A stretch of DNA of 30,276 nucleotides from the IMG/VR virus record IMGVR_UViG_3300025727_000037, positions 1 through 30,276 of that record; one strand, given 5' to 3'. The stretch is from a virus. The notes below the pieces were generated by a model, which saw only the letters and a list, made by a program, of their open reading frames with translations, had not been told where the DNA came from and ran no database searches. Below, one piece after another: positions 11,501 to 30,276 of this stretch. The first letter of the stretch is position 1. The number at the start of each line of letters is the position of its first letter. The position numbers and the translations under genes are program-made.

Positions 11501-14500
11501 TTGCTGCAACTGTGCCGGAGTCAACGGCATTTCCATCGTTGTGAGAACCCCGGTTGCGTCGTCTACCCATTCAACTGTTGACACGCCTCGTTCGGCATCG
11601 TATTTAGGGGTTTTACCCAAAGTAAACCGTGCGCCACGCGACGACTGTTCAAAATCTTTGATCAACGCATCAATCTGTGTTTTAGACGCATCCGGGTGGT
11701 GACGCAAAACAACGCGTTTAATCATCGCTGTCTGCTGCGCCTCCGCTTTGAACACGCGACCAGCGCGACCCGCCGCAGCCCACTCGCCACGGAACCTTGC
11801 TATCTCATCGGCGGAAGCCCCACCTTCCTGCATCGCACGGGCGATCTGCTCACCACTATTAGGGTCACCAGCCCAAACATGTCGTTGAGGTTTCATATCG
11901 CGAAACAACTGAACAGAACGACCCAAACGACCAGGACGATCAATGCCGTCGCCACGGTACCAAGTAGAGTGTTCTAGTTTGTCTCTAGTGTTTTTACGCC
12001 AAGACGGAGTTATTACTTCGTCTATGGAAGCCCAACCCGCTACCGCTTGGGCGTGGGACGCGGTTTCGTCGGCTAGTTCTTGCGCTGTTTGGAACGCGGC
12101 AGCGTTGGCTCCTGCGACTCCTTCTGGGATGTGCGGTCCGATGAACGCTGTGTCTGCGAATAGTCCGCGGTAAAATGTTCCGGCGGCAGGCGAGTCGGCC
12201 ATGATGCGTTCCACTGCGGAGGTTTCTCCCATGAAGAACCGCATTGGGCCTTCCATTGATTCGCGTCCGCCGGTGAATCCGCCTTCTCCGAGGTATGCGC
12301 GGGCTAGTTCGTATGATACGAGGTCGCCTCTGGCGTGGTCGGGGAAGTATTTTTCGCGGATACGCCCGGTGAGTGTGTTGAGGACTGTTTCGGCTTGTCC
12401 ATCCACGTCACCTGCTTCTTTCAGGCGGCCTTTGATGTCGTCGCGGGTTTGGACGAGTGCGTCTATTTCTTCGTCTGTTACTGTTCCGCTGCGGCGTTTC
12501 CGTGTCCGAGCGTTTCTGAGTACACGATTTGCTTCAACAAGGTCGTCTTCTAGTTTCGCTACATTTGCAACAGCAGCACCGGTAGTAGGCGACCGAGGGA
12601 TACGGGTAGCGGAAGCCCCCGAATCAACCACCCCTGACACAAACTGCAACAACCCATTATCGGCAATCGTTTTTTCCAGAACTACAGGAGAAGCCAAATC
12701 GCTGACGGGGCGCATCAAGAGTGCCTTAACGGTGTCCAACCCGACCTTCTCTACCGCCCCCTCTAAAGCCTTCTCAATCTCAGGAGACATCACCCCGCGC
12801 TTCGCAAACTCTTCCGACAAACTGTGCAATCGAAGCGACAGCCTCTCCCAGTCCGGCCCCCTCACCGCATCGTGCGGACCAGCAAAGTATCTAGTGTCCT
12901 TGCCTCTGTAATCCAAATCTTTGAACTCAGGTATCGAGTCAACGATGTTCTCAACATCGTCTAGTTGGGCAATGATTTCATCTTCCAACCCTTTGGGACT
13001 AAGTTTCGCGGCCTCATCGTTAAACCGCACATGGGGTTGCCAACTCTCCGTTGGGGTTACCCTCGACCCCAACACTCTAGGGCTTATGATAAGTTCCGAT
13101 TCGGGAGTAATGGGGCCAAGGCGCGCATCTACCGCTCCTGAAACTTCTCTGAGTTCTATCTCGAACCGCTCAATCTGATGACTCCCAGGGCGGGACACTG
13201 TTCCTGATGCTACTTTTTCTGCCCCCAGGTATTCCGCGTCGAGCGAAACCGACGGTTGGCGATCAAGCGGGTTACCTCGACGATATACCACCACGGTGCC
13301 ATTCCCGAAAGCAGGGTTTGTCCTTAAAAGATACTCTTGGCTTATAATCGCTATTTGGCGTTCAACCAAGGCTTTCACCGCCGGAGTGATGTCTCCTGCT
13401 TCTATGACGAAATCATCCGCCCAGGGTGCGATTGCCTCTTTGCCTGTTAGGGCGATTCCAGCCGGATCGTTAACGGGGCTACCCCGATAAGATAAGGCGA
13501 CCTCTTCAAAGGTGCCTCCCACCCCAGAAACGGGGGCTGTGTCCTCTAGCCCCGTTAAGGCGCGCTGCCCAATCGTGTAGTTCGCTTCACGCCTATCTGT
13601 AAAATGTCGGCGCACGATCTCATCGGCGAGGTTTTTTTCCGCAGCGGTGGCCGCAGGAAGTTCTGCGAAAGAACCGCCAAACCCTTTGAACACCCCATCC
13701 GCATCGCCTCCAACGCCGACAAGGGATTGGGTATCCCCTGTTTGCACTGCTTCTATTATGCCAAGTTTTTCTTCGTTGCCAACAGCATTCACCCGTTGCG
13801 TCGCAGAGAGGTCTGGGGCTTCCCCCCAAGAGGCTTCTCGAACTGGTGGGGCATGCCCAGCGTCGGTGGCTAACTGTTCAACATCATCTGCTAAACGAGA
13901 AAACCCGCCGCCCTCCTCAAAATAGTTAACCCGAGCAGAACGCAAACGCGCACCACGCACACCCATATATGTGTACCCAGCCAAAATATCCACATCACCG
14001 AACACGCGAAACGCAGCGTCAACGGTACCCGACATGATGTTATGAAACTGGGTACCCTCCCAACGAGCCAACTGATCTTCATCCATGATGTCGTCAGTCG
14101 CCATAGCAAACGAAACCGCTTGACCAATAGAACGAGTTTGCGCTATACGATGCGCCAACTTCCAATCATCCTTATCAAACCAAACACCAATATCGTCGCC
14201 AAAAAAACCGCCCGAACCACGCGACTCAGCGAGCGAAGCCATCGTCATCACCGTAGTCAAAGGCTCACGAATCCACTCGCGGCCAGCGTACTCCAACCCC
14301 TCCAACGCCTTCCCGCCACCCTCACGCACAGGCTCAGGCAAAGCACCAATCAACGTGCCACCAATACCATCAGGACCAATCAGATTATTGAGTTGCTCCG
14401 CGCCACGCTTCATCGCGACCCCAGAAACAGTACCCAACAACCCTTCATACTCGTCGTCAGTAAAAGGAGCCTCAACAATATCTATAACAGCGTTAACGGA

Positions 14501-14560
14501 AGTACGCCCAACCTCGAAACCAGCGTCCCAAAGTTTATCCAAGCGACTTAAAAAACTCAC
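8567..14560 (-). CDS. Giant (1997-residue) putative internal/ejected virion protein
   Basis: One uninterrupted frame from GTG 14560. Residues 1-300 are mixed helical. Residues 420-505 show an arrangement like ADP-ribosyltransferases: VVVYRRG (R427/R428), PSVSLDAEYLGAEKVA (436-451) and PESELIISP (E487, E489). Residues 665-715 are a charged coiled coil. Residues 1138-1160 are a Gly/Ala-rich hydrophobic segment (GALGTVIAGPFGAAAGAGGS), flanked by basic residues. Residues 1060-1090 (RPSMLLRPAWAIRVVGDEQL) and 1478-1500 (GAIMKNVMPFFNAWQEVLSR) are patterns I associate with very large actinophage virion proteins. The C-terminus is helical and acidic. Its place just after the portal and the lack of a tape measure suggest an internal protein ejected with DNA. 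The function of the ART-like part is inference. Confidence 0.75.
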   Translation of the reverse strand: MSFLSRLDKLWDAGFEVGRTSVNAVIDIVEAPFTDDEYEGLLGTVSGVAMKRGAEQLNNLIGPDGIGGTLIGALPEPVREGGGKALEGLEYAGREWIREPLTTVMTMASLAESRGSGGFFGDDIGVWFDKDDWKLAHRIAQTRSIGQAVSFAMATDDIMDEDQLARWEGTQFHNIMSGTVDAAFRVFGDVDILAGYTYMGVRGARLRSARVNYFEEGGGFSRLADDVEQLATDAGHAPPVREASWGEAPDLSATQRVNAVGNEEKLGIIEAVQTGDTQSLVGVGGDADGVFKGFGGSFAELPAATAAEKNLADEIVRRHFTDRREANYTIGQRALTGLEDTAPVSGVGGTFEEVALSYRGSPVNDPAGIALTGKEAIAPWADDFVIEAGDITPAVKALVERQIAIISQEYLLRTNPAFGNGTVVVYRRGNPLDRQPSVSLDAEYLGAEKVASGTVSRPGSHQIERFEIELREVSGAVDARLGPITPESELIISPRVLGSRVTPTESWQPHVRFNDEAAKLSPKGLEDEIIAQLDDVENIVDSIPEFKDLDYRGKDTRYFAGPHDAVRGPDWERLSLRLHSLSEEFAKRGVMSPEIEKALEGAVEKVGLDTVKALLMRPVSDLASPVVLEKTIADNGLLQFVSGVVDSGASATRIPRSPTTGAAVANVAKLEDDLVEANRVLRNARTRKRRSGTVTDEEIDALVQTRDDIKGRLKEAGDVDGQAETVLNTLTGRIREKYFPDHARGDLVSYELARAYLGEGGFTGGRESMEGPMRFFMGETSAVERIMADSPAAGTFYRGLFADTAFIGPHIPEGVAGANAAAFQTAQELADETASHAQAVAGWASIDEVITPSWRKNTRDKLEHSTWYRGDGIDRPGRLGRSVQLFRDMKPQRHVWAGDPNSGEQIARAMQEGGASADEIARFRGEWAAAGRAGRVFKAEAQQTAMIKRVVLRHHPDASKTQIDALIKDFEQSSRGARFTLGKTPKYDAERGVSTVEWVDDATGVLTTMEMPLTPAQLQQSFFTLDVKGLDRFLRHNKSRFSGVYKATDNAGDWITGAMRIWRPSMLLRPAWAIRVVGDEQLRMMSRLSVLGEGTSMGNGPLWELLTSSRADYVEAALESALKTKSPRRIQVGRAARSGALGTVIAGPFGAAAGAGGSLIRNNKALRKLIKKRTKIEEAKKTGDQVALRELGVGNLEINGYEVQAAFGDALSPNLAWRKLNSANRQTGYLLDNATKMQNDKLAVELGAWTRVLDPNDAVTVDGVRDFANYWERVVNDHWGGELGAIIWDDSLGNAADRAEALVRWMNETPSGRQFAQDIALRIKHQGADGWAEVAVSAADRMLSDPALRARLAQGQRVSLDDVRKVADDVGESWQGLVGTIHAQEQTMMKSDGILDRAQKVVDGLYERMGTLPTDTLSRNPYFRRIYEMGMRRRLKDFKKGEGFELSEDALRQLESSARREALQETRYLLYDLAETSQFGAIMKNVMPFFNAWQEVLSRWAGLTANNPVFTARMFKAIHPDVELGDTFETVEDDRGNRFFQFRVPEFAADIMGAGYAGGAADDQNVIRFRASSLNMITQGLPGFGPIIQIPASKLVQEEPQVEDALKFMLPYGPVGVLDSLQPAWMKRITSSLLEDRSYESQAATIMVTRLADMANGDLEQIDFGDGNARAEFIADVRNDAKSFMFVRAIASAFSPASVGFHSPYQSYIDAYRGFKSADPSTADDKFMELLVDEGNEGFFALAARFSKNNEGLPATLESEELRAEYIDLVNQFPEVGGLILGIEGGGAAKFSAAVYDRQLEEDTRPGSGVKRRERLALEEILVSSREREGWQEYGRINDIIYNEMRERGLPNLQVAAASELAAVKKQAIERIAEEFPLWAEAYKNPDLTKWSNRVDGMRAIVEDERLIGRDDIRLLSEYLDMRDIFTGELAERAANGGASTLRASSNQDMAAAWEEVTMRMAENPTFGDLLWRWLEFDPMSSDTWPESQQMLKNEAA

Positions 14561-16709: not shown

Positions 16710-18623
16710 TTAACCAACCTTTTTTCTTATCCAAGACGGCCTCCACATCGGAGTCGCATCCCCCTTAGGCAAACTAATGTTCGGAAGATTATGTTCTAAA
16801 AACCATTGCGCCATAACACAGTCGTCCGTACGGGAACCAGTCCCGTCAGGAGTCCACTTAGTTACTTCGTTGATTAATAGTAGCGCATGTGGGCGAGCCT
16901 CAGTTCTTTGCCGCCCCGGAAGACGCACCAAACCATGTTTATACAACCCAGCGAGCATCTGAACACCATAATCAGGGTCACCCTTGTTGCGAGAATGCGT
17001 GTAATGAGGGATCAAATGGACACCCCTCGTAGCAGACCAGCGTTGAAAATGATCGTACTGCATAATAAACTTTTGCGCCGCATTCGCCTCAACAATCCAA
17101 TACTGGATCGGATGCCCCATGTCCATCGACCGACGCTGCCACTCCTCAGCGATGCCAGTAAACGTACCCTCCGAATGGTTCCAATCCAAAAATGTTGGCG
17201 CATCCATTTTCTGACGATACGACTCCAACAAATAACGGAACCCCGACTCCGGCACATACGCCCAAACCTGCAAAGCCCAATACTTAGAAGGCGACGGATC
17301 AGCCGTAGCGCAAATAATCACATCACCCGGCAAGTTCGCAGGCAACTCCCACAAATCACGGTCAGCATCCCAGCACCCCATGTACTCCACCCCATCGGCA
17401 CCCTTCCCACCCGAAATCCACAAAGGGTCCACAAGAACAGAAGCAGGATCAGCATCCTCCTGCTGATACAAAATAGCGTAACGATCAGGAGTAGACTGCT
17501 GAATATGCGTTAACTTACGCCAGTTCAAACGACGCGGATACAACAAGCACCCATCAGGCCACGGATCAGAAGCCATCTTATGATTCTTCTCGCACAAATC
17601 TTCGTAATGCGCTTTATACAAAATATGGTGATACCGTTTCCCACCGAGCTGCAAAGACTCCGGTATTTCCTCATCGAAGTCATCATCGTCATCCATGATT
17701 GCTTCCTTATCCAACGCATACCGGTAAATATCGTCCGAAGACATACGTTGCCCCTGCAACACCAGAAGGCCGCCCGGCTCCAACCGAGTCTCCGCCACCT
17801 CATCCCACCATTGCTTCAACTGTTCGCGAGCATCAGCGGTACGCATCTTACGAGGATCATACAAATCGTCCCAAATCACCAAATCGAAACGGCCACCCAA
17901 AAACCCCGAGTCCACACCAAACGCCGTCCAAGTAGGTTCCTTCTCAGACACAGGCATATCGCCCTCCTGGGCAACAGTAAACTGGTCGCCACGCCACACC
18001 TCTTTAATCTCAGGCTTAAACCGGCCAAAATCCTCCAACAAAACTGCTTCAGCATCCACTGCTAAACCAAGTTTCATATCCTTAGCCTCAGCCTTAACAG
18101 GGATGGTACGTTCAAACTCGTTTTTCAGGCGACGCGTATACCATTCACCCAACCGGGCTGTATGCGAACCAACCATTCCACGCAACGTCCGGTCGCGAAC
18201 CGTAGCCCACGCCGGAAGTATCCGAGTAAAAAACGTTGACTTGCCTGAACCAGGGGGAGCGTTGATAACAACGTATTCTTCTTGCGGAGAGTTCATTAAC
18301 TCCATGATGCGTCCCGTGGCTTCAACCTGCCACGGCATGAGTATCAAACCAAAATAGCGGCGAGCAAAAACTTCAATATCGTCGTACGCTTCTTTCGCCT
18401 CAGGAATCAACTCGTCGTACGGAACAACCGCAGGTTTTTTTAGTTCCTCAAAAGCAGCTTTCGCTTGCTTCCCAATAACACTACCGGTACCGTCTTCGAA
18501 ATCTTTAGCAGCGCGTTGAGAAACATTCAATCGTTTCGCCGCCGCGTAACGGGTCGCACCGCCGTCGCGGAGTTCCTGAAACTTGATCCACGTTTCCGCC
18601 GGTATCGCTCTACCTGAAACCAC
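16710..18623 (-). CDS. terL: Terminase large subunit with N-terminal helix-turn-helix extension
   Basis: 637 residues. The ATP-powered DNA-packaging motor and genome-cutting nuclease. Residues 10-45 resemble a helix-turn-helix (GGATRYAAAKRLNVSQRAAK). The ATPase has Walker A APPGSGKST (122-130) and Walker B FDLVIWDD (246-253), followed by a coupling-type segment VLQGQRMSSDD (288-298). The RNase H-like nuclease has conserved acids D442 (CATADPSPSKY), E512 (WIVEANAAQKF) and D600/D601 (RTDDCVMAQWF). An Asp-run insertion (DDDDDFDEE, 311-319) lies between the two. The GTG start overlaps the upstream stop as TAGTG. No separate small-terminase gene is recognised nearby, so the N-terminal HTH may supply DNA recognition. 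Confidence 0.93.
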   Translation of the reverse strand: MVSGRAIPAETWIKFQELRDGGATRYAAAKRLNVSQRAAKDFEDGTGSVIGKQAKAAFEELKKPAVVPYDELIPEAKEAYDDIEVFARRYFGLILMPWQVEATGRIMELMNSPQEEYVVINAPPGSGKSTFFTRILPAWATVRDRTLRGMVGSHTARLGEWYTRRLKNEFERTIPVKAEAKDMKLGLAVDAEAVLLEDFGRFKPEIKEVWRGDQFTVAQEGDMPVSEKEPTWTAFGVDSGFLGGRFDLVIWDDLYDPRKMRTADAREQLKQWWDEVAETRLEPGGLLVLQGQRMSSDDIYRYALDKEAIMDDDDDFDEEIPESLQLGGKRYHHILYKAHYEDLCEKNHKMASDPWPDGCLLYPRRLNWRKLTHIQQSTPDRYAILYQQEDADPASVLVDPLWISGGKGADGVEYMGCWDADRDLWELPANLPGDVIICATADPSPSKYWALQVWAYVPESGFRYLLESYRQKMDAPTFLDWNHSEGTFTGIAEEWQRRSMDMGHPIQYWIVEANAAQKFIMQYDHFQRWSATRGVHLIPHYTHSRNKGDPDYGVQMLAGLYKHGLVRLPGRQRTEARPHALLLINEVTKWTPDGTGSRTDDCVMAQWFLEHNLPNISLPKGDATPMWRPSWIRKKVG

Positions 18624-18823
18624 TATTTAGTCTTCCTACGTTTACGACGAGGAACCATGCCCCGATCCAATACCTTAACCGCTGAAGGCTGCCCACCATC
18701 AGCGCAACCCCCGAAACTCGTAACCTCATGCTCCCAACAAGCACCCGGAGTACCCATTGTCGGAACAATACGTTCACCGCAACGACACACCGCCAGCCGA
18801 GGATACCCCGCCTGCTTAACCAC
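18623..18823 (-). CDS. Small CxCGE-motif Cys-rich protein (second of a pair)
   Basis: 66 residues from GTG 18823, chosen because GGAGGAG ends four bases upstream and the start overlaps the preceding stop by eight bases (GTGGTTAA), the junction style used repeatedly here. Key residues are CRCGERIVPTMG, then ACWEHEV, then GGC; the C-terminus is strongly basic (RRKRRKTK). CRC, C and H could form a zinc site. It ends at the terminase start (TAGTG). A small DNA-binding or packaging accessory protein is possible. It resembles the upstream neighbour, which also has a CxCGE motif. Confidence 0.55.
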   Translation of the reverse strand: MVKQAGYPRLAVCRCGERIVPTMGTPGACWEHEVTSFGGCADGGQPSAVKVLDRGMVPRRKRRKTK

Positions 18824-19004
18824 CAGACTCCTCCACCAAAGTTTCACACGACCCTAAGGAATGGCTTGTTATCGCTGTCCAGTTTTCTTCAACGGGGCCG
18901 GGGTGGAGGGTTTGTGTTACACCGGGTTTGCCGTTGCCGACGATGATGAGGATGGTTTCTCCGCAGGAGCATTCGTGGCTCATCGTGTTTTGCTTACGAA
19001 ACAT
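18816..19004 (-). CDS. Small CxCGE-motif Cys-rich protein (first of a pair)
   Basis: 62 residues if begun at ATG 19004, which overlaps the stop of the preceding gene (TAATG); ATG 18983 is the alternative. Visible motif MSHECSCGETILIIVGNGKP, then VEENWTAITSH and GSCETL. The CSCGE, H and C residues could form a zinc site. The order CxCGE(R/T)I, Trp, His, Cys is shared with the next gene. Function not recognised. Confidence 0.5.
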   Translation of the reverse strand: MFRKQNTMSHECSCGETILIIVGNGKPGVTQTLHPGPVEENWTAITSHSLGSCETLVEESGG

Positions 19005-19795
19005 TATGTAAAACAACTCCCCGAATCGCAGCCCTCCGGCCCCTCCAAATCAAGAGCCATCTGGTCATCAACCACCCTGTCCAACGGCGCACCAAACTTC
19101 GTCATCCACATTTTGTACCCTTTCCCCAGTTCATCGCAACGATCACCCATCGCTTCCTCGATCTCAACGGCTTTCGCAAACAACGCTGGCCTCTCATTTT
19201 TCAACTCCCGCCACGACTCCATCGAATGAAACGGACAAAAAAAGCAAGCCGAACGAGGAGGCTTAGGCAACCCCACCTCCTCTATCACATCGAAACAATC
19301 CCTGCGGTGCATCCCCAAATCCAACAAAGGGTAATCCAACAACTGATCGTCAAACCCGCTGTCTGTTCTCGCCCTCTGAATCTCATCAACACTAATACCC
19401 AAACCAACTGTCGCCGGGTTCTCGCTCGTCGAACCGAGTTTACGATGCCAACGATGCACAACCTTTATTTTGTAATCGCCCGTGCATTTTCTCCGCCCAG
19501 GAGCCGTCCCCACATACATAGGGATAATGATCGAACGTGTCGGACGCAAAATGTCCTCCACTAAAGTAATCGGTTTCCCGCGCAAAGTGTTGTGAAGCTC
19601 ATGTAGTTCAATACCGTGCTTCTTCGCAAACGGTTTATGGTACTCATGGAAATATTCGATAGTCAATGGGTCTTCACTATCGTCGCCAACGTTCGCAAAC
19701 AGGAACGCGTCATACGGATCAGGTAACCGGCCCAACGCTTGCAACGCCAAAACAGCCGTCGATTGGACACCTCCACCGAAACTAAAGAACCTCAC
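19004..19795 (-). CDS. PP-loop ATP-pyrophosphatase protein, PAPS-reductase-like
   Basis: 263 residues from GTG 19795, which lies seven bases after GGGAG; a TTG at 19801 is too close to it. The N-terminus FFSFGGGVQSTAVLALQALG carries the SGG-type PP-loop (S-F-G-G-G-V-Q-S-T) of adenine-nucleotide alpha hydrolases. Cysteines recur at C104 (RKCTGDYKI), C184/C187 (ACFFCPFH) and the C-terminal C256/C261 (GCDSGSC), and could bind an iron-sulfur cluster or metal. This matches phage proteins annotated as phosphoadenosine phosphosulfate reductase family. True PAPS reduction is doubtful; sulfur transfer or base/RNA modification by adenylation is equally possible. It heads the minus-strand packaging operon. 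Confidence 0.8.
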   Translation of the reverse strand: MRFFSFGGGVQSTAVLALQALGRLPDPYDAFLFANVGDDSEDPLTIEYFHEYHKPFAKKHGIELHELHNTLRGKPITLVEDILRPTRSIIIPMYVGTAPGRRKCTGDYKIKVVHRWHRKLGSTSENPATVGLGISVDEIQRARTDSGFDDQLLDYPLLDLGMHRRDCFDVIEEVGLPKPPRSACFFCPFHSMESWRELKNERPALFAKAVEIEEAMGDRCDELGKGYKMWMTKFGAPLDRVVDDQMALDLEGPEGCDSGSCFT

Positions 19796-19874
19796 AACCA
19801 ATCTCCCTTACTCGTAGAACCACAACACTACACCAAAAACCCGCCAAACACAAGAACCTAACGCCGCCACCACC

Positions 19875-19883
19875 TGCTATAGT
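19875..19883 (+). promoter_or_regulatory. Putative extended -10 promoter (TGCTATAGT) facing the structured region
   Basis: Plus-strand TGCTATAGT, preceded by C, identical to the minus-strand sites before the capsid leader and before the holin. No -35 is visible at 16-18 bases. Transcription would begin near 19890, at the first hairpin of the structured region. Confidence 0.45.
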
Positions 19884-19889
19884 AAAACC

Positions 19890-20051
19890 AACACCGATTT
19901 TCTGGTGTTTCCCGCCTAACCCGCGAGAGGCTCGCCCGTCAGAGGGGCTTCAACCCCCTGCACCAAAAGACAAGAGTCAGCAGGGGTAGAACAGTCCAGG
20001 ACAAAGCTAGTTCAAGGCAGACTGGCCTCAACTAGCGGAGGGACCCAAGGG
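19890..20051 (+). ncRNA. Candidate structured RNA or 5' leader with competing hairpins
   Basis: Successive inverted repeats on the plus strand: AACACC/GGTGTT (19890-19909), GCGAG/CTCGC (19923-19935), AGGGG/CCCCT (19943-19959), CCCCTGC/GCAGGGG (19955-19986), and a compound hairpin GCTAGTT-AGGC/GCCT-AACTAGC (20006-20036). The third and fourth share 19955-19959, so they exclude each other, as in switching leaders. GGAGGG follows the last hairpin at once and lies nine bases before ATG 20052. I do not recognise a known riboswitch, tRNA or tmRNA. No homologue comparison was possible, so the structure is a hypothesis. Confidence 0.35.
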
Positions 20052-20354
20052 ATGCCACCGCCCAAACACACCCGCCGCCCCGACACACCCGCCACAAGTG
20101 TCACAAGTGTCATAAGTGTCACCCCCAACCAAAAACCACAAGCCACCCAAACTGCCACAAACCCACAGCCAAACAAACCCACCCCGGCAGACCACACAAA
20201 CACACCCCACAACACACACAACAAACACACACACAACACCCAAACATTCGACCCAACCAGCCACCAAAACAACCACCCCCAGTCGAAACACAACAACCCA
20301 AAAACACCCCACCACCAGCAAAAACACAAAAACACAACACAACCACACCGATAA
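20052..20354 (+). CDS. Doubtful low-complexity Thr/Pro/His/Asn-rich ORF
   Basis: 100 codons beginning MPPPKHTRRPDTPATSVTSV, then almost only Thr, Pro, His, Asn, Gln and Lys. In favour: ATG preceded by GGAGGG with nine-base spacing, just after a structured leader, and an early 9-base repeat (20094-20120) in frame. Against: the DNA is nearly pure A/C, in which stop codons cannot occur by chance, so the open frame carries little weight. If translated, the product would be disordered. It resembles no family I know. Confidence 0.2.
   Translation: MPPPKHTRRPDTPATSVTSVISVTPNQKPQATQTATNPQPNKPTPADHTNTPHNTHNKHTHNTQTFDPTSHQNNHPQSKHNNPKTPHHQQKHKNTTQPHR
20120..20350. other. A/C-only strand-asymmetric tract
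   Basis: On the plus strand this stretch is almost free of G and T, with long runs such as CACACAACACACACAACAAA. The RNA from the plus strand would be C-rich, G-poor and unstructured, the composition expected of Rho-utilisation sites. On the minus strand it is G/T-rich. Together with the G/T tract at 20440-20533 it fills the gap between the divergent operons. Three copies of a 9-base unit (ACAAGTGTC) lie just before it at 20094-20120. Confidence 0.7.
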
Positions 20355-20359
20355 TCAGT

Positions 20360-20430
20360 GGTGGCACGCGGGGGGGCTGGGCAAACCCCCGCAGGGAGGG
20401 GGTAACCCTCACCCCGCCCCGCATGCCACC
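20360..20430. other. Large G/C hairpin between the A/C and G/T tracts
   Basis: A 14-base arm at 20360-20373 (GGTGGCACGCGGGG) pairs with 20417-20430 (CCCCGCATGCCACC) with one mismatch. Inside are further complementary pairs (GCGGGGG with CCCCCGC; GGGT with ACCC) and several G runs that could form a quadruplex. It could be a cruciform, an origin structure, a packaging site or a transcription block; sequence alone cannot choose. Confidence 0.6.
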
Positions 20431-20439
20431 GGTCCGGCG

Positions 20440-20533
20440 AGACTATGGGCGGGGGTGGTGGTGGTGGTTGGTGGTGCTTTATTGTTGCCTGGGTGGTGGT
20501 GGTGTGTGTGTGTTGCCTGGGTGGTGGTGGTGC
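20440..20533. repeat. G/T tract with GTG repeats and a 22-base direct repeat
   Basis: Plus strand is almost only G and T, mainly GGT/GTG units. A 22-base sequence beginning TGTTGCCTGGG occurs at 20483-20504 and again at 20511-20532, 28 bases apart. The second copy runs directly up to the promoter at 20534. No gene is visible in it. Confidence 0.75.
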
Positions 20534-20587
20534 TTGACAAGTTAGGTCTAGGTGTGGGATACTTTAAGCGTAAGCTATCCGGCTTAC
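20534..20587 (+). promoter_or_regulatory. Promoter P1 and leader hairpin of the small membrane protein gene
   Basis: TTGACA (20534-20539), 18-base spacer, GATACT (20558-20563). The spacer holds TAGGTCTAGGT, a short direct repeat also present in P2 that could be an operator. The leader has a 6-bp hairpin GTAAGC/GCTTAC (20570-20587), then the box TAGAGAAAAGAG (20591-20602) seven bases before the start. Confidence 0.8.
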
Positions 20588-20609
20588 CTTTAGAGAAAAG
20601 AGTTTAGTT

Positions 20610-20744
20610 ATGTTAACTAGTGGAGATTACCGCAGGGTGTGTGGTGCTTTAATCGTGACAGGGGTAGTGGTGGTGGTGTGGTTGTTAGGTGGTTGGCAAC
20701 TGTTTAATGATTGCGTAGCGGTAACAGGTGCGGCTTGTTTATAA
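20610..20744 (+). CDS. 44-residue single-span membrane protein
   Basis: ATG 20610 to TAA 20744. Reads MLTSGDYRRVCGALIVTGVV, then VVVWLLGGWQLFNDCVAVTG, ending AACL. Residues 11-29 are a clear membrane helix (GALIVTGVVVVVWLLGG), with a positive N-terminal side, so the C-terminus probably faces outward. Two further cysteines lie after the helix. It has its own promoter, leader hairpin and purine-rich box of the same design as the clamp gene, which is strong support for a real gene. TTATAAAAGCTTT overlaps the stop and recurs after the clamp gene. Function unknown; small membrane proteins expressed early in phages often alter the host envelope or exclude other phages, which is inference. Confidence 0.75.
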   Translation: MLTSGDYRRVCGALIVTGVVVVVWLLGGWQLFNDCVAVTGAACL

Positions 20745-20764
20745 AAGCTTTTCTTCTGTAAAGC

Positions 20765-20817
20765 TTGACAGCTAGGTCTAGGTGTGGAATAATGACGGGG
20801 TAAGCTATCCGGCTTAC
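20765..20817 (+). promoter_or_regulatory. Promoter P2 and leader hairpin of the sliding clamp gene
   Basis: TTGACA (20765-20770), 17-base spacer containing TAGGTCTAGGTGTGG as in P1, and AATAAT (20788-20793). The leader repeats the GTAAGC/GCTTAC hairpin (20800-20817), followed by TAAAGAAAAGAG (20820-20831) nine bases before the GTG start. Confidence 0.85.
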
Positions 20818-20840
20818 CTTAAAGAAAAGAGAAAAGAACA

Positions 20841-21569
20841 GTGACTACAGAAACTACAGAAAAGGCCGAGGGAATAAGCCCCGGTACTTTAGAAACACTG
20901 ACAGTAGAGCTTGACGCTATGCGCTTTAAAGCGTGTATCGATGCGGCCCTTATTGCCGCTAGTAAAGACTACACGCGGCCCATACTGACCGGGGTTCTGA
21001 TCGTTAACCGGGGTGAATGGATCGAACTAGTGTCAACCGATAGCTACCGGTTAAGCGTGATTACCATGCCGGTATTGTCTCCGGCGGTATTCGAGCCGGT
21101 CAACATTGCTACCGATAGCTTAAAGCAACTATCTACCATGCTTAAAGGCATGAAAAGAGGGGTGGTTTCGTTGACCGTTACACCTAGCGCGGCAGGGCCG
21201 GCGGTAGTGGTAGCCACGGTAACCGGCGGGGGGCAGGAATACCCGACCCCGTCAGAACTCCACTACCGTTTAGCGGTAATAGAAGGCGAGTTCCCTAACT
21301 ACCCTAACCTTTTACCTAAGGAGGGTACTTTTTGGGGTGGCCTGGACACCGGTTCTAAGGGCGTAGGGTTTAATCCTAAGTACTTAGCCGATAGTGCTAA
21401 GTGGGCTACCATTATCCATCGAAGTTATGGCGATAAGGATTTACCGGTAATCTTTGGGGCCGTTGATCACTTAAAGCCTGCCACGCTAACGGTAAGCCAT
21501 GATCCTAACGATACCCCGGACGGGATGCCCCGGCCCGTGTACCTTTTAATGCCAGTCCGGATTAGCTAA
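20841..21569 (+). CDS. Shortened DNA polymerase III beta (sliding clamp)-like protein
   Basis: 242 residues, GTG start. Clamps encircle DNA and tether polymerases and other enzymes. Residues 19-163 match a clamp middle domain: RPILTGVLIV (46-55), STDSYRLSVITMP (65-77), IEGEFPNYPNLLPKE (147-161). The end matches the last part of clamp domain 3: GFNPKYLADSAKW (176-188) and YLLMPVRIS (234-242). Bacterial clamps have about 370 residues in three domains; here domain 1 and the first half of domain 3 appear absent. It may form a ring with another subunit number or act as a decoy for clamp-binding host proteins. It has its own promoter and a strong terminator. Codon use (many TTA, AGC, CCG) differs from the minus-strand genes. 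Confidence 0.82.
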   Translation: MTTETTEKAEGISPGTLETLTVELDAMRFKACIDAALIAASKDYTRPILTGVLIVNRGEWIELVSTDSYRLSVITMPVLSPAVFEPVNIATDSLKQLSTMLKGMKRGVVSLTVTPSAAGPAVVVATVTGGGQEYPTPSELHYRLAVIEGEFPNYPNLLPKEGTFWGGLDTGSKGVGFNPKYLADSAKWATIIHRSYGDKDLPVIFGAVDHLKPATLTVSHDPNDTPDGMPRPVYLLMPVRIS

Positions 21570-21601
21570 CGCCTTTAATCCTACTTATAAAAGCTTTACT
21601 T

Positions 21602-21636
21602 AAAAGCCTGCCTACCGTTATGGTTGGCAGGCTTTT
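21602..21636 (+). terminator. Strong intrinsic terminator after the clamp gene
   Basis: 15-base arms with one mismatch (AAAAGCCTGCCTACC at 21602-21616; GGTTGGCAGGCTTTT at 21622-21636), five-base loop, ending in a T run. The AGCCTGCC/GGCAGGCT core recurs at 22096-22122. The A-rich left arm also gives a T run on the other strand. Confidence 0.9.
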
Positions 21637-21742
21637 AAGCGTTTAAGGGGTAAAAGCGGCCCCGTAGGTCGATCCTAAGCCCCGCCGGGGTAGTGGTTGG
21701 TGGTACCTTTACCCTACGAAAAGCAGCCGGGGCCGATCATCC

Positions 21743-21809
21743 CACTAACTACCATGATCAGACACTAACTACCATGATCAGACACTAACTACCGTGATCA
21801 GACACTAAC
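21743..21809 (+). repeat. 20-bp iteron-like tandem array with TGATCA cores
   Basis: Unit CACTAACTACCATGATCAGA starts at 21743, 21763 and 21783 (the third has one A-to-G change), with a partial fourth copy at 21803-21809. The 20-bp period places each TGATCA palindrome on nearly the same helix face. It lies 30 bases upstream of promoter P3. Iteron-type replication origin or multi-site operator are the two natural readings. The 273 bases from the clamp terminator to P3 hold no gene. Confidence 0.9.
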
Positions 21810-21838
21810 CAGGCGGTGAAAGTTTTTGGGCGTAATAC

Positions 21839-21868
21839 TTGACGGGGTGGGTAAAAGTGTGGAATAAT
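21839..21868 (+). promoter_or_regulatory. Promoter P3
   Basis: TTGACG (21839-21844), 18-base spacer, AATAAT (21863-21868), followed by GACGGGG as in P2. The GTAAGC hairpin is lost (GTAAGTAGCC instead), but TAAAGAAAAGAG (21899-21910) stands five bases before the ATG. Confidence 0.8.
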
Positions 21869-21915
21869 GACGGGGCGGGGTAAGTAGCCTCGCAGCTCTA
21901 AAGAAAAGAGAAGCT

Positions 21916-22086
21916 ATGCGAATAGTAAAAGTGGCAGCCGATGATCTAGCCGAGGGTGACGAGCTACCCCGTTACGGGGTGGTTGGTGACATCGAACTAA
22001 CGAAAAGCGGGGCGGTAGTGGTCCATGCAACATGGCGCACTCTTACCCTGGCGGCAGATACCGCCGTGCCTGTCTACCGGGGTTAG
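21916..22086 (+). CDS. 56-residue hypothetical protein of the plus-strand island
   Basis: ATG 21916 to TAG 22086. Starts MRIVKVAADDLAEGDELPRY and continues GVVGDIELTKSGAVVVHATW, ending with a short hydrophobic end (LTLAADTAVPVYRG). The pattern of short strands (VVGDIEL, AVVVHATW, AVPVYRG) suggests a small beta-barrel-like fold. No cysteines or membrane segment. It has its own promoter P3, the purine-rich box, and a terminator ten bases after the stop, making it a complete single-gene unit. No family recognised. Expression under the iteron array suggests it could be controlled by whatever binds there. Confidence 0.75.
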   Translation: MRIVKVAADDLAEGDELPRYGVVGDIELTKSGAVVVHATWRTLTLAADTAVPVYRG

Positions 22087-22095
22087 CAGCCTTTT

Positions 22096-22125
22096 AGCCT
22101 GCCGCCGTTTTGGTGGCAGGCTTTT
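22096..22125 (+). terminator. Intrinsic terminator after the 56-residue gene
   Basis: Arms AGCCTGCCGCC (22096-22106) and GGTGGCAGGCT (22112-22122), 11 pairs with one G-T, five-base loop, then TTTT. It shares its core with the clamp terminator. Confidence 0.88.
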
Positions 22126-22172
22126 AGGGTGCCAACCTGGTACCGATTGACTAAAGAAAAGAGAAAAGCAAC

Positions 22173-22451
22173 GTGGACAGAATCACAGAAAAGGACCTAA
22201 AGCGGCAGCTAAAAGTGTTAAACGCTTTAACCGGTCATAAAGAAACCCCGTTCGAAGAGGTTAACGGGGCGTATGTATGGAATACCGGGACGTATTGCCT
22301 AGGCATGGCATACGGCGGCTGTCGGATAGAGCAGATAGTAAACAGCGGCGGCGGCTGTTCTGATGTATCGATGCGGGGTACACGTCGCGAGGTTTACGAA
22401 CAACTCCGGACAGCTGTCCGCGTGTTATCCGATTACCAGGCGGCGGAGTGA
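22173..22451 (+). CDS. Conserved phage hypothetical protein (AYGG-type)
   Basis: 92 residues, GTG start nine bases after TAAAGAAAAGAG (22152-22163). Visible pattern: LKVLNALTGHKETPF, then ...YVWNTGTYCLGMAYGGCRIE, then VNSGGGCSDVSMRGTRREVY, then a C-terminal helix. The same pattern (N..TG.P..P...., G.Y.L..AYGG..L....N.GGG, helix with R.(L/V)Y) is familiar from many mycobacteriophage and other phage proteins of unknown function. A compact single-domain protein with no catalytic motif. No promoter is seen between the terminator at 22125 and its start; TTGACT at 22147 lacks a -10, so it may depend on read-through. It overlaps the next start by one base. Confidence 0.8.
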   Translation: MDRITEKDLKRQLKVLNALTGHKETPFEEVNGAYVWNTGTYCLGMAYGGCRIEQIVNSGGGCSDVSMRGTRREVYEQLRTAVRVLSDYQAAE

Positions 22452-22576
22452 TGCAGGACAAGCTTGTCCACGCTTTAGGGTGGGCTATCGGGATCGTGTC
22501 CCTAGCTTTAGCGTCCCGCCCGGTCGATGATCCTAACGGGATGTTAGACCCCGACAAGTACAGAGAGGAAAGGTAA
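22451..22576 (+). CDS. 41-residue small protein with N-terminal hydrophobic helix
   Basis: ATG 22451 overlaps the previous stop (TGATG). Reads MQDKLVHALGWAIGIVSLAL, then ASRPVDDPNGMLDPDKYREE and R. Residues 6-21 are hydrophobic and could lie in or on the membrane; the rest is polar and acidic. The coupling, and the ribosome-binding site of the next gene placed across its stop (GAGGAAAGGTAA), support translation. Function unknown. Confidence 0.6.
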   Translation: MQDKLVHALGWAIGIVSLALASRPVDDPNGMLDPDKYREER

Positions 22577-22580
22577 AGAA

Positions 22581-22763
22581 ATGAAAGAAAACCGACTACA
22601 CCCCGGCGAAAAGGTTTATACCTGCCGCCATTTTTACGGCGACAAGCTCGCGCTATGCCAGGGGAAGGGTTGCGGGAACTTCATCAGTGATTGCCAAACC
22701 TGCCGGGCGACCTGTCCGGAATGTCACCCGCTGGGCATCCCGGCCGGGTCGCTCGAAGAATAA
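22581..22763 (+). CDS. 60-residue Cys-rich putative zinc protein
   Basis: ATG 22581 with GAGAGGAAAGG upstream. Seven cysteines: YTC at 15, LCQGKGC at 26 and 31, DCQTC at 38 and 41, TCPEC at 45 and 48, plus H17 and H49. The CxxC pairs suggest one or two zinc sites. Small, soluble, and last gene of the plus-strand island, followed 15 bases later by a strong terminator. Nucleic-acid or protein binding is likely from the fold type but the target is unknown. Confidence 0.75.
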   Translation: MKENRLHPGEKVYTCRHFYGDKLALCQGKGCGNFISDCQTCRATCPECHPLGIPAGSLEE

Positions 22764-22777
22764 AGCCGGTAAAGGTC

Positions 22778-22816
22778 AAGCCCCGCCCCGCCGTAAAGGT
22801 AGGGCGGGGCTTTTCT
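22778..22816 (+). terminator. Intrinsic terminator closing the plus-strand island
   Basis: An 11-bp perfect stem (AAGCCCCGCCC 22778-22788; GGGCGGGGCTT 22802-22812) with a 13-base loop and TTTTCT after it. It separates the plus-strand island from the convergent minus-strand operon. Confidence 0.92.
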
Positions 22817-22869
22817 ATGCCTAAAGCAGGCCAGCAAAAAACCAGGAAAAGTTTCCCCCCAAAAACAAC

Positions 22870-22912
22870 GAAACAGACACCTGACACGAACCAAGAAACA
22901 GACACCTGACAC
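22870..22912. repeat. Two direct repeats in the convergent intergenic region
   Basis: GAAACAGACACCTGACAC occurs at 22870-22887 and 22895-22912 (25-base period). A separate 8-bp inverted repeat (AGAACCCC 22919-22926; GGGGTTCT 22951-22958) follows. No gene is visible in 22764-23007. Confidence 0.8.
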
Positions 22913-22968
22913 AAACAGAGAACCCCCCGCCGGAAGGAGATAACCAGCGAGGGGTTCTGTAGTTTAGT

Positions 22969-23002
22969 GGCGGCGAGGAAGAAAGAGTAAGACCTCGCCG
23001 CC
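22969..23002 (-). terminator. Hairpin at the end of the minus-strand early operon
   Basis: Perfect 10-bp stem (GGCGGCGAGG 22969-22978; CCTCGCCGCC 22993-23002), 14-base loop, five bases past the last minus-strand stop. No T run follows on the minus strand, so termination may be only partial or Rho-aided. Confidence 0.65.
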
Positions 23003-23007
23003 TTGAA

Positions 23008-23325
23008 TCACTTTAGCACGGTGTCGCGCAGTTTCGCTATGTCTGCTAATAGTTTTTCTTTCGACACGGGATTCCCTGATGGCGGCAACGCCTTATACAT
23101 TGGTTCTGCTGCCCGTTTCAACGCTGCGACCTCAGCTACCACCGTAGACATAGCAGGCCACCATTCTTCCGTCGCGGCTAACCGATCCATTGCTTTACGG
23201 GTTAGTTCGTAATCCATCGCCGACAAGCGTTGATGCCAAGACATTATTGTTGCATCCAAGATTTTGGATTGCGGCCACACACTAGACATGCCGAACAAGA
23301 TACGGTCTGCTTCTTCGTTAGTCAT
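23008..23325 (-). CDS. Possible helicase-loader-like replication protein
   Basis: 105 residues, the last gene of the minus-strand early operon. Helical throughout. The pattern ILFGMSSVWPQ (9-19), LDATIMSWHQRLSAMDYELT (23-42) and AMDRLAATEEWWPAMSTVVA (45-64) resembles the small helicase-loader/replisome-organiser family typified by SPP1 G39P, where a Trp-containing helix, a D.dYe motif and a fP..s.v.ev motif occur in this order. Similarity is by eye and weak. A role in loading a replicative helicase would fit the replication block. An alternative is a general helical phage protein of unknown role. Confidence 0.55.
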   Translation of the reverse strand: MTNEEADRILFGMSSVWPQSKILDATIMSWHQRLSAMDYELTRKAMDRLAATEEWWPAMSTVVAEVAALKRAAEPMYKALPPSGNPVSKEKLLADIAKLRDTVLK

Positions 23326-23584
23326 TGCAGGCTTCTCCTTCTGCTGCTATGTAAAAGGGTTTCGCCATAACGAGTTTAGTTTCTTCGCGCCCCAACCCCC
23401 ATTGGGTGCATGCCTGGTTCCATGCGTCGGACCAGTTGTCGGCGTGTTCCAAGTATTCGGAGTACCTTTTCCCTTTGCTTTCTATTACGACTAGGAACGG
23501 GGTCATGCTGGGTCCAAACGAGCGGCGACCGCCATGTCTAACCCGCCGTACCCTGTGCAAAGACTCCCTAGTTTCAACATTCAT
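23318..23584 (-). CDS. Hypothetical protein, 88 residues
   Basis: ATG 23584, overlapping the previous stop (TAATGAATG); GAAGGA lies upstream. The basic N-terminus (HRVRRVRHGGRRSFG) is followed by MTPFLVVIESKGKRYSEYLE and DAWNQACTQWGLGREE, then KPFYIAAEG. The middle looks like a short beta-alpha domain. An internal ATG at MTPFLVVIE could be used instead, which would remove the basic arm. Family not recognised. In the same operon as several other small early-type genes. Confidence 0.6.
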   Translation of the reverse strand: MNVETRESLHRVRRVRHGGRRSFGPSMTPFLVVIESKGKRYSEYLEHADNWSDAWNQACTQWGLGREETKLVMAKPFYIAAEGEACND

Positions 23585-23742
23585 TAGTATCCTTCATCTC
23601 GTAGCTCAGATAACTTTATATCGGCAGCGATCTCAGCCCAATCTTCTTCAGACAAACACTCACAATCATCCCCTCCGAGGCCACATTCGCATTCGTCTTC
23701 GTCTGGGGCATCGTACCAACGGTCAGATAATCCTTCAACCAT
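23584..23742 (-). CDS. 52-residue acidic protein with CEC-CEC motif
   Basis: ATG 23742, selected by AAGGAGAA six bases upstream and an eight-base overlap with the preceding stop. Starts MVEGLSDRWYDAPDEDECEC and continues GLGGDDCECLSEEDWAEIAA. Two C-x-C pairs eight residues apart could bind a metal. Very acidic overall. Function unknown; small acidic early proteins in phages may mimic DNA or inhibit host enzymes, but nothing here proves it. Confidence 0.65.
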   Translation of the reverse strand: MVEGLSDRWYDAPDEDECECGLGGDDCECLSEEDWAEIAADIKLSELRDEGY

Positions 23743-23989
23743 TACGTTTCTCCTTCGCCAACCGTTGACTCCGAGCATTCCTACGGGTCTTCCCGCACGA
23801 CACGCAACGGCAACCATCGAGCCACCGCAACTCCGTCCCGTGATCCGCTTTCTTAACAACGGCCTGCTTTGCACGGTTTTTCTTTTCGGCATATTCGCGG
23901 TCACCTTCGGCGCGTAGTTTCTTAAACTCGCCCAACGAAACCGTGTCGTTCAACTCCTTAAAACTCCCGTACTCTTTCCTTATAACCAT
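23735..23989 (-). CDS. Zinc-module protein with one HGT...GCRC-x2-C motif
   Basis: 84 residues from ATG 23989 (AGGGAG five bases upstream, start inside the end of the previous gene). N-terminal VSLGEFKKLRAEGDREYAEK resembles the linker of the preceding protein. Then DHGTELRWLDGCRCVSCGKT, the putative zinc site (His, Cys, Cys, Cys), and a basic tail (RRNARSQRLAKEKR). This HGT..(Y/W)..GCRC..C signature is common in small actinophage proteins of unknown function. Nucleic-acid binding is suggested by the basic tail. It looks like a third copy of the module found twice in 23980-24504. Confidence 0.75.
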   Translation of the reverse strand: MVIRKEYGSFKELNDTVSLGEFKKLRAEGDREYAEKKNRAKQAVVKKADHGTELRWLDGCRCVSCGKTRRNARSQRLAKEKRNG

Positions 23990-24504
23990 TGATCTCCCTC
24001 TCTCCATTTCTGGTCTTCTTTGTTGGCTCGCCACCGTTTCCTGTACGACGACGCAGCGTGGCGGCAATCATCGCACCGGCACTTACCGTTACGGTAACAC
24101 GAATACGTTCCGTGTGTCAAATGGGTGTCTACTTTATGGGCAGGTTTCCGGTATTCTCCGGTCATCATGCGCCTCTTATACTGGCCCAACGTTAACTCTT
24201 TCGACAACGGCGACGCTTCGTACTCTTTAATCAACTCCGGAGACTGCTTCAAACGGTAACGTTGCTGATCGTACGCGGCCTGAGCTGCCCGGCATTCGAT
24301 GCAGCGGCAGCCGTGAACATACTCCGAACGTGTCCCGTGGTTCGGTGTCCTCGCGCCAACATAACCCCGACTGCCTCTAACTATTACGGTGCGGTCACCT
24401 TTACGGTTTTCCCCGTAGACAGGTTTCCCCGCTTTCATTGCCCGTCGCCCCACCCTGCCTGCCTTTTCTTCGCGACGCAAATACTCTTCCCTAGTGAGTC
24501 CCAT
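23980..24504 (-). CDS. Zinc-module protein with two HGT...CRC-x2-C motifs
   Basis: 174 residues from ATG 24504, chosen because GGGAGGG lies five bases upstream; the long upstream extension overlaps WhiB and is unlikely. Residues 1-50 are basic (LTREEYLRREEKAGRVGRRA). Motif 1: NHGTRSEYVHGCRCIECRAA, followed by QAAYDQQRYR. Motif 2: THGTYSCYRNGKCRCDDCRH, followed by ASSYRKRWR. Between them lies LTLGQYKRRMMTGE, similar to the next gene. Each motif offers His and three Cys. Three modules in two adjacent genes point to duplication. DNA or RNA binding is inferred from the basic helices after each motif. Confidence 0.78.
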   Translation of the reverse strand: MGLTREEYLRREEKAGRVGRRAMKAGKPVYGENRKGDRTVIVRGSRGYVGARTPNHGTRSEYVHGCRCIECRAAQAAYDQQRYRLKQSPELIKEYEASPLSKELTLGQYKRRMMTGEYRKPAHKVDTHLTHGTYSCYRNGKCRCDDCRHAASSYRKRWRANKEDQKWREGDQWL

Positions 24505-24835
24505 GAGAAACCCTCCCGCAAAAAGCATGACACTTCGCCTGCCCCAACATGATCGGAATAAACAAACCAGAACACCGGACACAAACATGAGGAACCCAAT
24601 CCTCGACCCGGCTAGTCGCCAGCAAAGTTTTACGACGAGAAGCAGACACGCCACCCCAAAACCCCAACTCCTCGCCAGCGTTCAACGCCCAAGTTAAACA
24701 CTCCTGCTGAACAGGGCAACCACCGCACACTTTGCGAGCCACAGGGGAACCCCCCGCTTCAGGGAAAAAAATGTCAGGGTCCATCCCGACACAACTAGCT
24801 TCCCTAAAAAAATCTGTATCCAACGCCTCTTTCAT
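24491..24835 (-). CDS. WhiB-family iron-sulfur regulator with C-terminal Cys4 extension
   Basis: 114 residues. WhiB-type proteins are actinobacterial [4Fe-4S] transcription factors that bind the main sigma factor. Cluster ligands are C15, C37, C40 and C46 (CGGCPVQQEC), with the G-F-W-G-G turn at 58-62 and a basic SRRKT after it. Unusually, the C-terminus adds C85-x2-C88 and C102-x3-C106 (HVCVRCSG; AKCHAFCGR), which looks like a small zinc site. AAGGAGA precedes the ATG. Phage WhiBs can redirect or block host WhiB control and affect superinfection. The gene overlaps the zinc-module gene downstream by 14 bases. Confidence 0.9.
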   Translation of the reverse strand: MKEALDTDFFREASCVGMDPDIFFPEAGGSPVARKVCGGCPVQQECLTWALNAGEELGFWGGVSASRRKTLLATSRVEDWVPHVCVRCSGLFIPIMLGQAKCHAFCGRVSHGTH

Positions 24836-24844
24836 TGTTTCTCC

Positions 24845-24946
24845 TTATTTGATAAAAACCGTAGACCCTCCAACAGGGTCACCCCATAGTAGACCAACCA
24901 AGCAAAGCAATGCAACCCCAACGACTAAAGCCAACCATTGTTTCAT
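24845..24946 (-). CDS. 33-residue membrane peptide between the two WhiB genes
   Basis: ATG 24946 overlaps the previous stop as ATGA; TAA at 24845. Reads MKQWLALVVGVALLCLVGLL, then WGDPVGGSTVFIK. Residues 4-21 are a membrane helix. A 6-bp hairpin (GACCCT 24864-24869; AGGGTC 24875-24880) in its 3' end is followed on the minus strand by a TTTTT run, so part of the transcription may stop before the WhiB gene. Coupled start and complete hydrophobic span support the gene. Function unknown. Confidence 0.65.
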   Translation of the reverse strand: MKQWLALVVGVALLCLVGLLWGDPVGGSTVFIK

Positions 24947-25122
24947 ACTCTTTGAGCATCCAACGAAGCCCTCATAAGCTGCCGCGCCATGTCGATAGCG
25001 ACCTCAGGAGGAAACGACCAAGCAGACTCCAAGCCCTCGTCGTATTCGATGCGAACAGTAACCAGAGGCCCATGTTTCGGATCGCGGGTGGCTTTAACAA
25101 AAAAGGCGCAATCCTCAATCAT
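24943..25122 (-). CDS. Hypothetical protein, 59 residues
   Basis: ATG 25122 overlaps the end of the upstream WhiB gene (ATGATTGA). Starts MIEDCAFFVKATRDPKHGPL and continues VTVRIEYDEGLESAWSFPPE, ending with a helix (VAIDMARQLMRASLDAQ). Short strands then a helix, a compact alpha/beta layout. No motif recognised. Coupled between WhiB and the 33-residue membrane peptide. Confidence 0.65.
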   Translation of the reverse strand: MIEDCAFFVKATRDPKHGPLVTVRIEYDEGLESAWSFPPEVAIDMARQLMRASLDAQRV

Positions 25123-30208: not shown

Positions 30209-30276
30209 GTGCCCTCCCACCAGTTCCCATCGTCGGAAAAGCGAACAGGTTGAAGTTCCAAATCTTCAACCGAAAC
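30178..30276 (-). CDS. Partial upstream gene (N-terminus outside the window)
   Basis: 33 in-frame codons (VSVEDLELQPVRFSDDGNWW, then EGTCLVRLLTIP) ending TAA at 30178, overlapping the exonuclease start by 31 bases. A long overlap is not unusual here, and the sequence looks protein-like. Too short to name. Confidence 0.45.
   Translation of the reverse strand, partial: VSVEDLELQPVRFSDDGNWWEGTCLVRLLTIP

Follow-up and report, generated by a model that had tools for sequence, protein, structure and literature searches.

A plus-strand island of repeated start cassettes in an uncultured virus, and different cassettes at the same locus in its relatives

Why do six genes on the plus strand, inside an otherwise minus-strand viral genome, share a small set of promoter, hairpin and start-site parts? 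The question is raised by the IMG/VR record IMGVR_UViG_3300025727_000037 of an uncultured virus, of which positions 1 to 30,276 were analysed (30,276 nucleotides, hereafter the window). The genes, o1 to o6, form an island at 20534-22816, upstream of the terminase gene. A preliminary description had reported repeated promoters, leader hairpins, boxes before start codons and terminator-like parts, and sequence scans recovered all of them in place. From sequence comparison we hold, with moderate confidence, that the island is a plus-strand block in which genes receive a structured 5' leader and an extended Shine-Dalgarno (SD) sequence by interchangeable means. The block, non-structural and divergent from the packaging and structural genes, is probably of an early type.

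The genome is a circle of 36,356 bp, consisting of the window and another 6,080 bp. It closes because a second contig overlaps both ends of the window: the right end (29565-30276) is the left end of that contig, which spans the left end of the window as well. A third contig carries the same DNA over its overlap with the window.

Promoters, leader hairpins and start boxes of the island

The strongest statistic of the island comes from the box. The sequence AAAGAAAAGAG occurs exactly at 20821, 21900 and 22153 and with one mismatch at 20592, which places it within a few nucleotides of the starts of several non-structural genes, four of the six island starts in all. One additional single-mismatch copy (19966) lies away from any start, and with up to one mismatch there was none on the minus strand of the window or in the other 6,080 bp. 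Dinucleotide shuffles of the island held 0.03 boxes on average, with none of 500 reaching four, and none of 100 shuffles of the window reached five.

The box had been proposed to replace a normal SD sequence, which our analysis does not support. It can pair with an extended 16S rRNA tail, and its most plausible reading is therefore an extended SD with a slight mismatch. Its core AGAAAAGAG agrees at eight of nine positions with AGAAAGGAG, which is complementary to a 16S tail that ends in CCUCCUUUCU. The 16S rRNA tail of actinobacteria ends in UUUCU, and the predicted duplex energy of the four box genes is -6.4 to -6.8 with the tail CACCUCCUUUCU versus -2.9 with the E. coli tail. The excerpted text of PMC6288834 gives a UUUCU-type tail for other bacteria, such as Listeria, and has no actinobacterial entry. 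The genes o5 and o6 lack the box.

The three predicted promoters, P1 to P3 (Table 1), all have TG preceding the -10 hexamer. The pattern TTGACN(15-16)TGNNATNNT, drawn up post hoc from these three known sites, has three matches on both strands of the whole 36,356-bp circle, all three in the island; a general promoter scan is weak by itself (five predictions over both strands of 4.5 kb, compared with a mean of 2.8 and a standard deviation of 1.7 in shuffles). At all three promoters a 7-bp hairpin begins exactly 7 nt beyond the -10 hexamer. This is the distance of a usual transcription start, so each mRNA would begin at its hairpin. At P1 and P3, a stem started one base earlier has at most two pairs, and the P2 stem can be extended upstream. 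The hairpin GTAAGCTATCCGGCTTAC follows P1 and P2 in exact copies, without a third copy within three mismatches in the window. P3 has another hairpin sequence at equal spacing and thus preserves the geometry without the sequence.

The layout might also have arisen by a recent duplication of the promoter region around o1 and o2, the remainder being ordinary promoters and AG-rich ribosome-binding sites without any cassette logic. The two GTAAGCTATCCGGCTTAC hairpins indeed sit in a 71-bp repeat that is 84.5% identical (20532-20602 and 20763-20831), AG-rich ribosome-binding sites are common, and the exact 18-nt hairpin was found in no viral contig besides those of this phage, its only matches being in two contigs identical to the window where compared. 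We nevertheless regard a mere duplication as unlikely, because P3 has the same layout in other sequence, the box is identical at three starts and absent from starts elsewhere in the genome, and relatives have sets of one leader per gene at the same locus.

With three promoters for six open reading frames (ORFs), the previously suggested single-gene units are not supported throughout: o4 to o6 lack a promoter match, o4 having a hairpin and a box. At the 3' side, TTATAAAAGCTTT has two exact copies, at 20739, overlapping the o1 stop codon, and at 21585.

Start cassettes of relatives and hammerhead ribozymes

The terminase large subunit (window 16710-18623) has 135 relatives in IMG/VR at 45-100% identity, of which 80 loci were kept; they are denoted by L or G numbers here. 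The region upstream of the terminase was compared in 28 cases (the window, 23 single loci and four joined at contig ends), and 42 of the 80 kept records were searched in full for o4 and o2. The o4 family occurs in five of these 42 records, including the window's own twin. In the other four (L022, L051, L053 and L055), o4 is on the strand opposite to the terminase and upstream of that gene, at the same locus as in the window, and many island genes are preceded by a repeated hairpin and box, such as AGAAAGAAGGAAGAT among the matches listed. Hairpin cassettes that covary are present in the group of L051, L052 and L053 (13 aligned copies); the alignment for L022, L055, L117 and L118 has 30 rows, some of them alike in the box only. 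Five cassettes in G038 (terminase identity 89%), which likewise covary, keep a stem of about 20 pairs through many base changes, and L071 has one SD-like repeat before three starts. By our reading, 8 of the 28 regions, with the window, G003 and L052 counted, contain a start-cassette set.

The preliminary description had recommended a search for the cassettes in related genomes. The exact hairpin did not recur there; different cassettes were found at the same place. Hence the situation that the description had named as contrary evidence, namely cassettes absent from the relatives and genes conserved, does not cleanly apply. We infer an exchange of cassette types from their place and layout. In seven contigs of the L022, L051 and L055 type, 324 pairs of shared genes are in the same order and 19 in a different one, counting only families with one copy per contig. 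The block thus changes for the most part through genes that are gained or lost, and to some extent through reordering; its mosaic content is compatible with cassettes serving as recombination boundaries without being proof of it. The proposal of a plus-strand block of non-structural genes with repeated start parts is supported, and the blocks of the relatives differ gene by gene. Among titles and abstract openings of the PMC literature, we found no report of a slot with differing kinds of start cassettes in related phages.

Self-cleaving RNAs are one of the cassette types. The island of G003 (terminase identity 81%) opens with an ardC anti-restriction gene (PF08401, 1.3e-25; PF18818, 6e-33). 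After this gene comes the first of four type II hammerheads (RF02276, scoring 44.7-52.4 bits with the gathering score at 37; contig L096, 11717-14079, minus strand, which is the island strand). An AG-rich site and then a start codon come after each of the four. The same four are present in L157, 99.7% identical to the G003 contig over 5,485 bp. L156, a more distant family member with a translated identity of 39-47% to the window terminase, has one type II hammerhead (4505-4573, plus strand, 62 bits) directly before a start codon. Hammerhead_II also occurs in four further contigs, L153, L154, L158 and L159; translated comparison with the window, L096 and L008 gave no match for them, and they were excluded from the family. 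The suggestion that the island genes act against the host agrees with an ArdC gene opening a relative's block; in the window itself, a clear protein family was found for o2 only, with a weak match for o4.

The window has no hammerhead according to Rfam or to a descriptor scan (core CUGANGA...GAAA with three stems); every Rfam match to it (one and five in two scans) was below the gathering score and was set aside. The strict descriptor, which had no match in three sets of shuffled sequences, recovered the four copies of L096 and leaders in L022 and L055 (again in L086 and L089, the same contigs). The leaders in L051, L052, L053 and L117 were found by looser descriptors only, whose further rows were judged to be chance and not used. 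In these six relatives, the first cassette gene is preceded by a leader that has the core nucleotides and a layout resembling a type III hammerhead: pyrimidine strand, C, stem I, CUGAYGA, stem II, A, GAAA and SD box. The SD box forms the second strand of stem III, and the upstream cleavage product would end in an anti-box. Stem I changes on both sides at two of five pairs, a count reached by 55 of 500 shuffles, and the covariation score was reached by none of the 500; stem II is 60% paired in the one register scored.

Proposed mechanism and known systems

How could such different parts serve the same purpose? Host RNA polymerase would start at P1, P2 and P3, and the 5'-terminal hairpin of each RNA, with the box directly after it, would protect the mRNA end, given that a 5' hairpin hinders mRNA decay that depends on the 5' end. 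Protective 5'-terminal stem-loops are known from bacterial mRNAs such as ompA, which the window resembles in having a hairpin at the predicted extreme 5' end with the ribosome site next to it; it differs in being a repeated phage cassette, predicted from the nucleotide sequence. Ribosomes would be recruited to the box by its pairing with the UUUCU terminus of the actinobacterial 16S rRNA. The hairpins that follow o2, o3 and o6 would end or stabilise the messages, and o4 to o6 would be reached by read-through from P3. In the relatives, fewer promoters may serve the block, and new 5' ends would arise by self-cleavage or by nuclease cutting at the long hairpins. Since relatives have other parts at this site, some of them self-cutting RNAs, the parts look like interchangeable means by which genes obtain a messenger start of their own. 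The cassettes would be equivalent in function and would make it easier to gain, lose or reorder single genes.

A broader proposal is put forward tentatively. Within the phage family, one slot would house an island of one leader per gene, whose leader type has been swapped between lineages (promoter with a hairpin at +1, tandem type II hammerheads or long hairpins). In one subgroup, where a hammerhead-like leader draws the SD box of the first gene into stem III, cleavage of that leader would free an upstream RNA ending in a pyrimidine anti-box that is similar to the 16S tail. Pairing in trans between this RNA and the boxes of the whole operon could follow. If true, such islands conserve a layout, a fresh structured 5' end and a ribosome-binding site for each gene, and exchange the molecular means: transcription start, self-cleavage or probable nuclease processing. 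This would offer a testable reason for clustered phage hammerheads and start-associated repeats, whose roles are left open in the excerpted text of PMC3088659 and PMC3203893.

Several observations weigh against interchangeable leaders as the explanation of the island. In the repeat survey, 20 of the 28 regions had no comparable start-cassette set, and o4 is the sole gene-level link between the island of the window and those of the relatives. P1 and P2 count as one duplication, leaving two independent cases of the hairpin geometry, and stems of at least seven pairs begin at 2.7% of island positions (0.8% across the window). The box pairs less strongly than many minus-strand SDs of this phage (-9 to -12), and its pairing was computed with a presumed actinobacterial tail, which may not be that of the host. 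Only four T follow each of the two AGCCTGCC hairpins. The type III-like leaders carry an extra A before GAAA, and Rfam reports no hammerhead in L022, L051 and L055 (to E 1) or in L117, L119 and L124 (to E 10), for which reasons self-cleavage of these leaders is left as a candidate only.

The known system closest in role, as far as the excerpted text of PMC3203893 goes, is the Start-Associated Sequence (SAS) of Cluster K mycobacteriophages, a 13-bp repeat at the position of the ribosome-binding site of several non-structural genes with partial 16S pairing; just upstream of about half of the SAS sites are 17-bp imperfect inverted repeats, the ESAS. The window shares with it a start-site repeat at several non-structural genes, predicted partial 16S pairing and a presumed actinobacterial host. 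However, the SAS sequence GGGATAGGAGCCC is absent from the window (no matches at up to two mismatches), and the window repeat comes with its own promoter and a hairpin at the predicted +1. As for inverted repeats, the window has an 18-nt dyad, different in sequence from the ESAS, before two of its four boxes and another hairpin before a third.

The authors of that study find little support for RNA hairpins at the ESAS and favour DNA-binding proteins (PMC3203893, as excerpted). By analogy, the hairpins of the window could be DNA or RNA sites for a phage regulator (a repressor, an antiterminator or a translational regulator), the cassette being a signal for co-regulation. Hairpins 1 and 2 have the same sequence, more than a role in structure alone would call for, and tandem repeats precede P3. 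On the other hand, P3 retains the spacing and the 7-bp stem rather than the sequence, o4 has a box without the GTAAGCTATCCGGCTTAC hairpin, and relatives keep the structure while the sequence changes, so that we consider a regulator site doubtful. Interchangeable leaders remain our preferred interpretation.

Hammerheads have likewise been seen near single genes. A study from 2011 described multiple copies flanking single genes in prophages, and a set around ardA in Agrobacterium was shown to cleave in vitro and in E. coli (PMC3088659, as excerpted). G003 and L156 resemble these in having type II hammerheads before island genes, the first in G003 coming after ardC as others surround ardA in Agrobacterium. 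No hammerhead was found in the window, whose cassette would rely on promoters to create gene starts. Cluster O mycobacteriophages, likened here by their description only, have 17-bp dyad repeats, that is, many copies of a short dyad repeat in an actinophage.

Genome context, upstream RNA and island genes

Codon use of the island had been reported to differ from that of the flanking genes. The difference stands in that the distance to the minus-strand genes, 0.225, is in the upper tail; among equal-sized minus-strand blocks, 95% are below 0.200 and the maximum is 0.250, so the island is unusual yet inside the range. At four-fold sites, the T/A skew in the window is 0.09 on the plus strand versus 0.59 on the minus strand. 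Seven relatives (L022, L051, L052, L053, L055, G038 and G003) shift alike, with -0.06 to 0.16 on the plus and 0.42 to 0.57 on the minus strand; L044, L048 and L061 show the reverse sign (0.17 to 0.32 and 0.03 to 0.12), for which we have no explanation. The difference is probably a strand effect common to relatives of nearer layout, with seven of ten in agreement and three of ten in disagreement. Since seven of the ten shift in the same way, codon use is poor evidence of foreign origin, and we judged an origin deduced from it unlikely. Recent acquisition of the block from outside, as a plasmid-like element or from a different phage and together with its own signals, would also fit o4 alone being found in the relatives. 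It appears very improbable, as the slot holds plus-strand genes in relatives as well and o4 is at the same locus in four of them.

Two WhiB genes (1e-18 and 1e-12) point to an actinobacterium as the host. A scan of genome contigs for prophages with eight terminases returned a single match, in a gammaproteobacterial metagenome-assembled genome and probably on a mis-binned phage contig, so the host assignment rests on WhiB. Matches of the terminase to cultured phages are distant (43 records, each below 60%), and 29 of the 43 are Streptomyces phages. Window positions 18000-25000 had no near match among phage records, o2 and the L055 copy of o4 had no protein match among 50,697 phage records, and titles and abstract openings in the PMC literature yielded no paper describing this phage family. 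The ORF lists of the window and the remaining 6 kb gave no further recognisable plus-strand gene block.

Table 1. Predicted features of the island and of the region upstream of it
Feature	Position	Strand	Remarks
Stretch containing the conserved structured RNA, upstream of island	19873..20084	+	pattern, profile, covariation
Promoter P1, TTGACA-18-GATACT, extended -10	20534..20563	+	predicted from sequence
Leader hairpin 1	20570..20587	+	GTAAGCTATCCGGCTTAC; onset 7 nt past P1 -10
Box 1, extended SD, one mismatch	20591..20602	+	before o1
o1, 44 aa	20610..20744	+	no Pfam/PHROG match
Promoter P2, TTGACA-17-AATAAT, extended -10	20765..20793	+	predicted from sequence
Leader hairpin 2, identical to hairpin 1	20800..20817	+	GTAAGCTATCCGGCTTAC; onset 7 nt past P2 -10
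Box 2, extended SD	20820..20831	+	before o2
o2, 242 aa, sliding-clamp homologue without DnaN domain I	20841..21569	+	Pfam, PHROG, PDB comparison
Terminator-like or stabilising hairpin after o2	21599..21639	+	AGCCTGCC/GGCAGGCT; -27.9 kcal/mol for the folded stretch
Three 20-bp tandem direct repeats before P3	21743..21809	.	TGATCA core
Promoter P3, TTGACG-18-AATAAT, extended -10	21839..21868	+	predicted from sequence
Leader hairpin 3, different sequence, equal spacing	21875..21893	+	onset 7 nt past P3 -10
Box 3, extended SD	21899..21910	+	before o3
o3, 56 aa	21916..22086	+	no Pfam/PHROG match
Hairpin between o3 and o4	22096..22122	+	AGCCTGCC/GGCAGGCT
Box 4, extended SD, no promoter upstream	22152..22163	+	before o4
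o4, 92 aa, common to relatives at same locus	22173..22451	+	weak family match
o5, 42 aa, overlaps o4, no box	22448..22576	+	ORF
o6, 60 aa, Cys-rich by eye, ordinary strong SD	22581..22763	+	ORF
Closing terminator-like hairpin, different sequence	22778..22812	+	-32.9 kcal/mol for the folded stretch

The structured RNA upstream of the island lies between divergent genes in 23 of the 28 regions (20 by pattern and three by profile search), including the window, L073, L022, L051, L044 and L015; G010 gave a weak match only, and L020, L023, L027 and L082 had no significant match. In two hairpins compared across the 23 sequences (19 distinct), 133 of 133 cells are paired, against 27-48% in slid controls, with changes on both sides at four of seven pairs. 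The number of pair types was reached by 424 of 500 shuffles and the covariation score by none. RNAalifold on all 23 elements gave few pairs because their lengths differ, and smaller alignments were used instead; a consensus of ten sequences has 34 pairs, 19 of them with changes on both sides in at least one sequence. An extended -10-like TGCTATAGT lies close to the upstream end of the element in the window. The element, which matched no Rfam family, is a candidate for a new phage non-coding RNA, and transcripts of the plus-strand block may have it as their leading RNA.

Among the island proteins, o2 matches PF02767 (42.5 bits; cut-off 27), and its best match to a clamp in the PDB has a value of 6.3e-7. 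As the best matches begin at about 126-225 in the clamp chains, o2 lacks the three-domain build of bacterial DnaN, domain I being missing. It might assemble as a two-domain ring, or it might act by interfering with the clamp of the host. An AlphaFold model of o2 was too poor (mean pLDDT 46.7) and was set aside.

The tandem repeats before P3 could be operators or iterons. At 20100-20530, the window changes abruptly from C/A-rich to G/T-rich with partly complementary arms, possibly marking an origin or another control region. A minus-strand protein of 1997 aa (8567-14560) has a single PHROG match, phrog_10618, with no function assigned. Inspection by eye showed GAAACAGACACCTGACAC twice in direct orientation at 22862-22916, in the gap between the convergent gene blocks.

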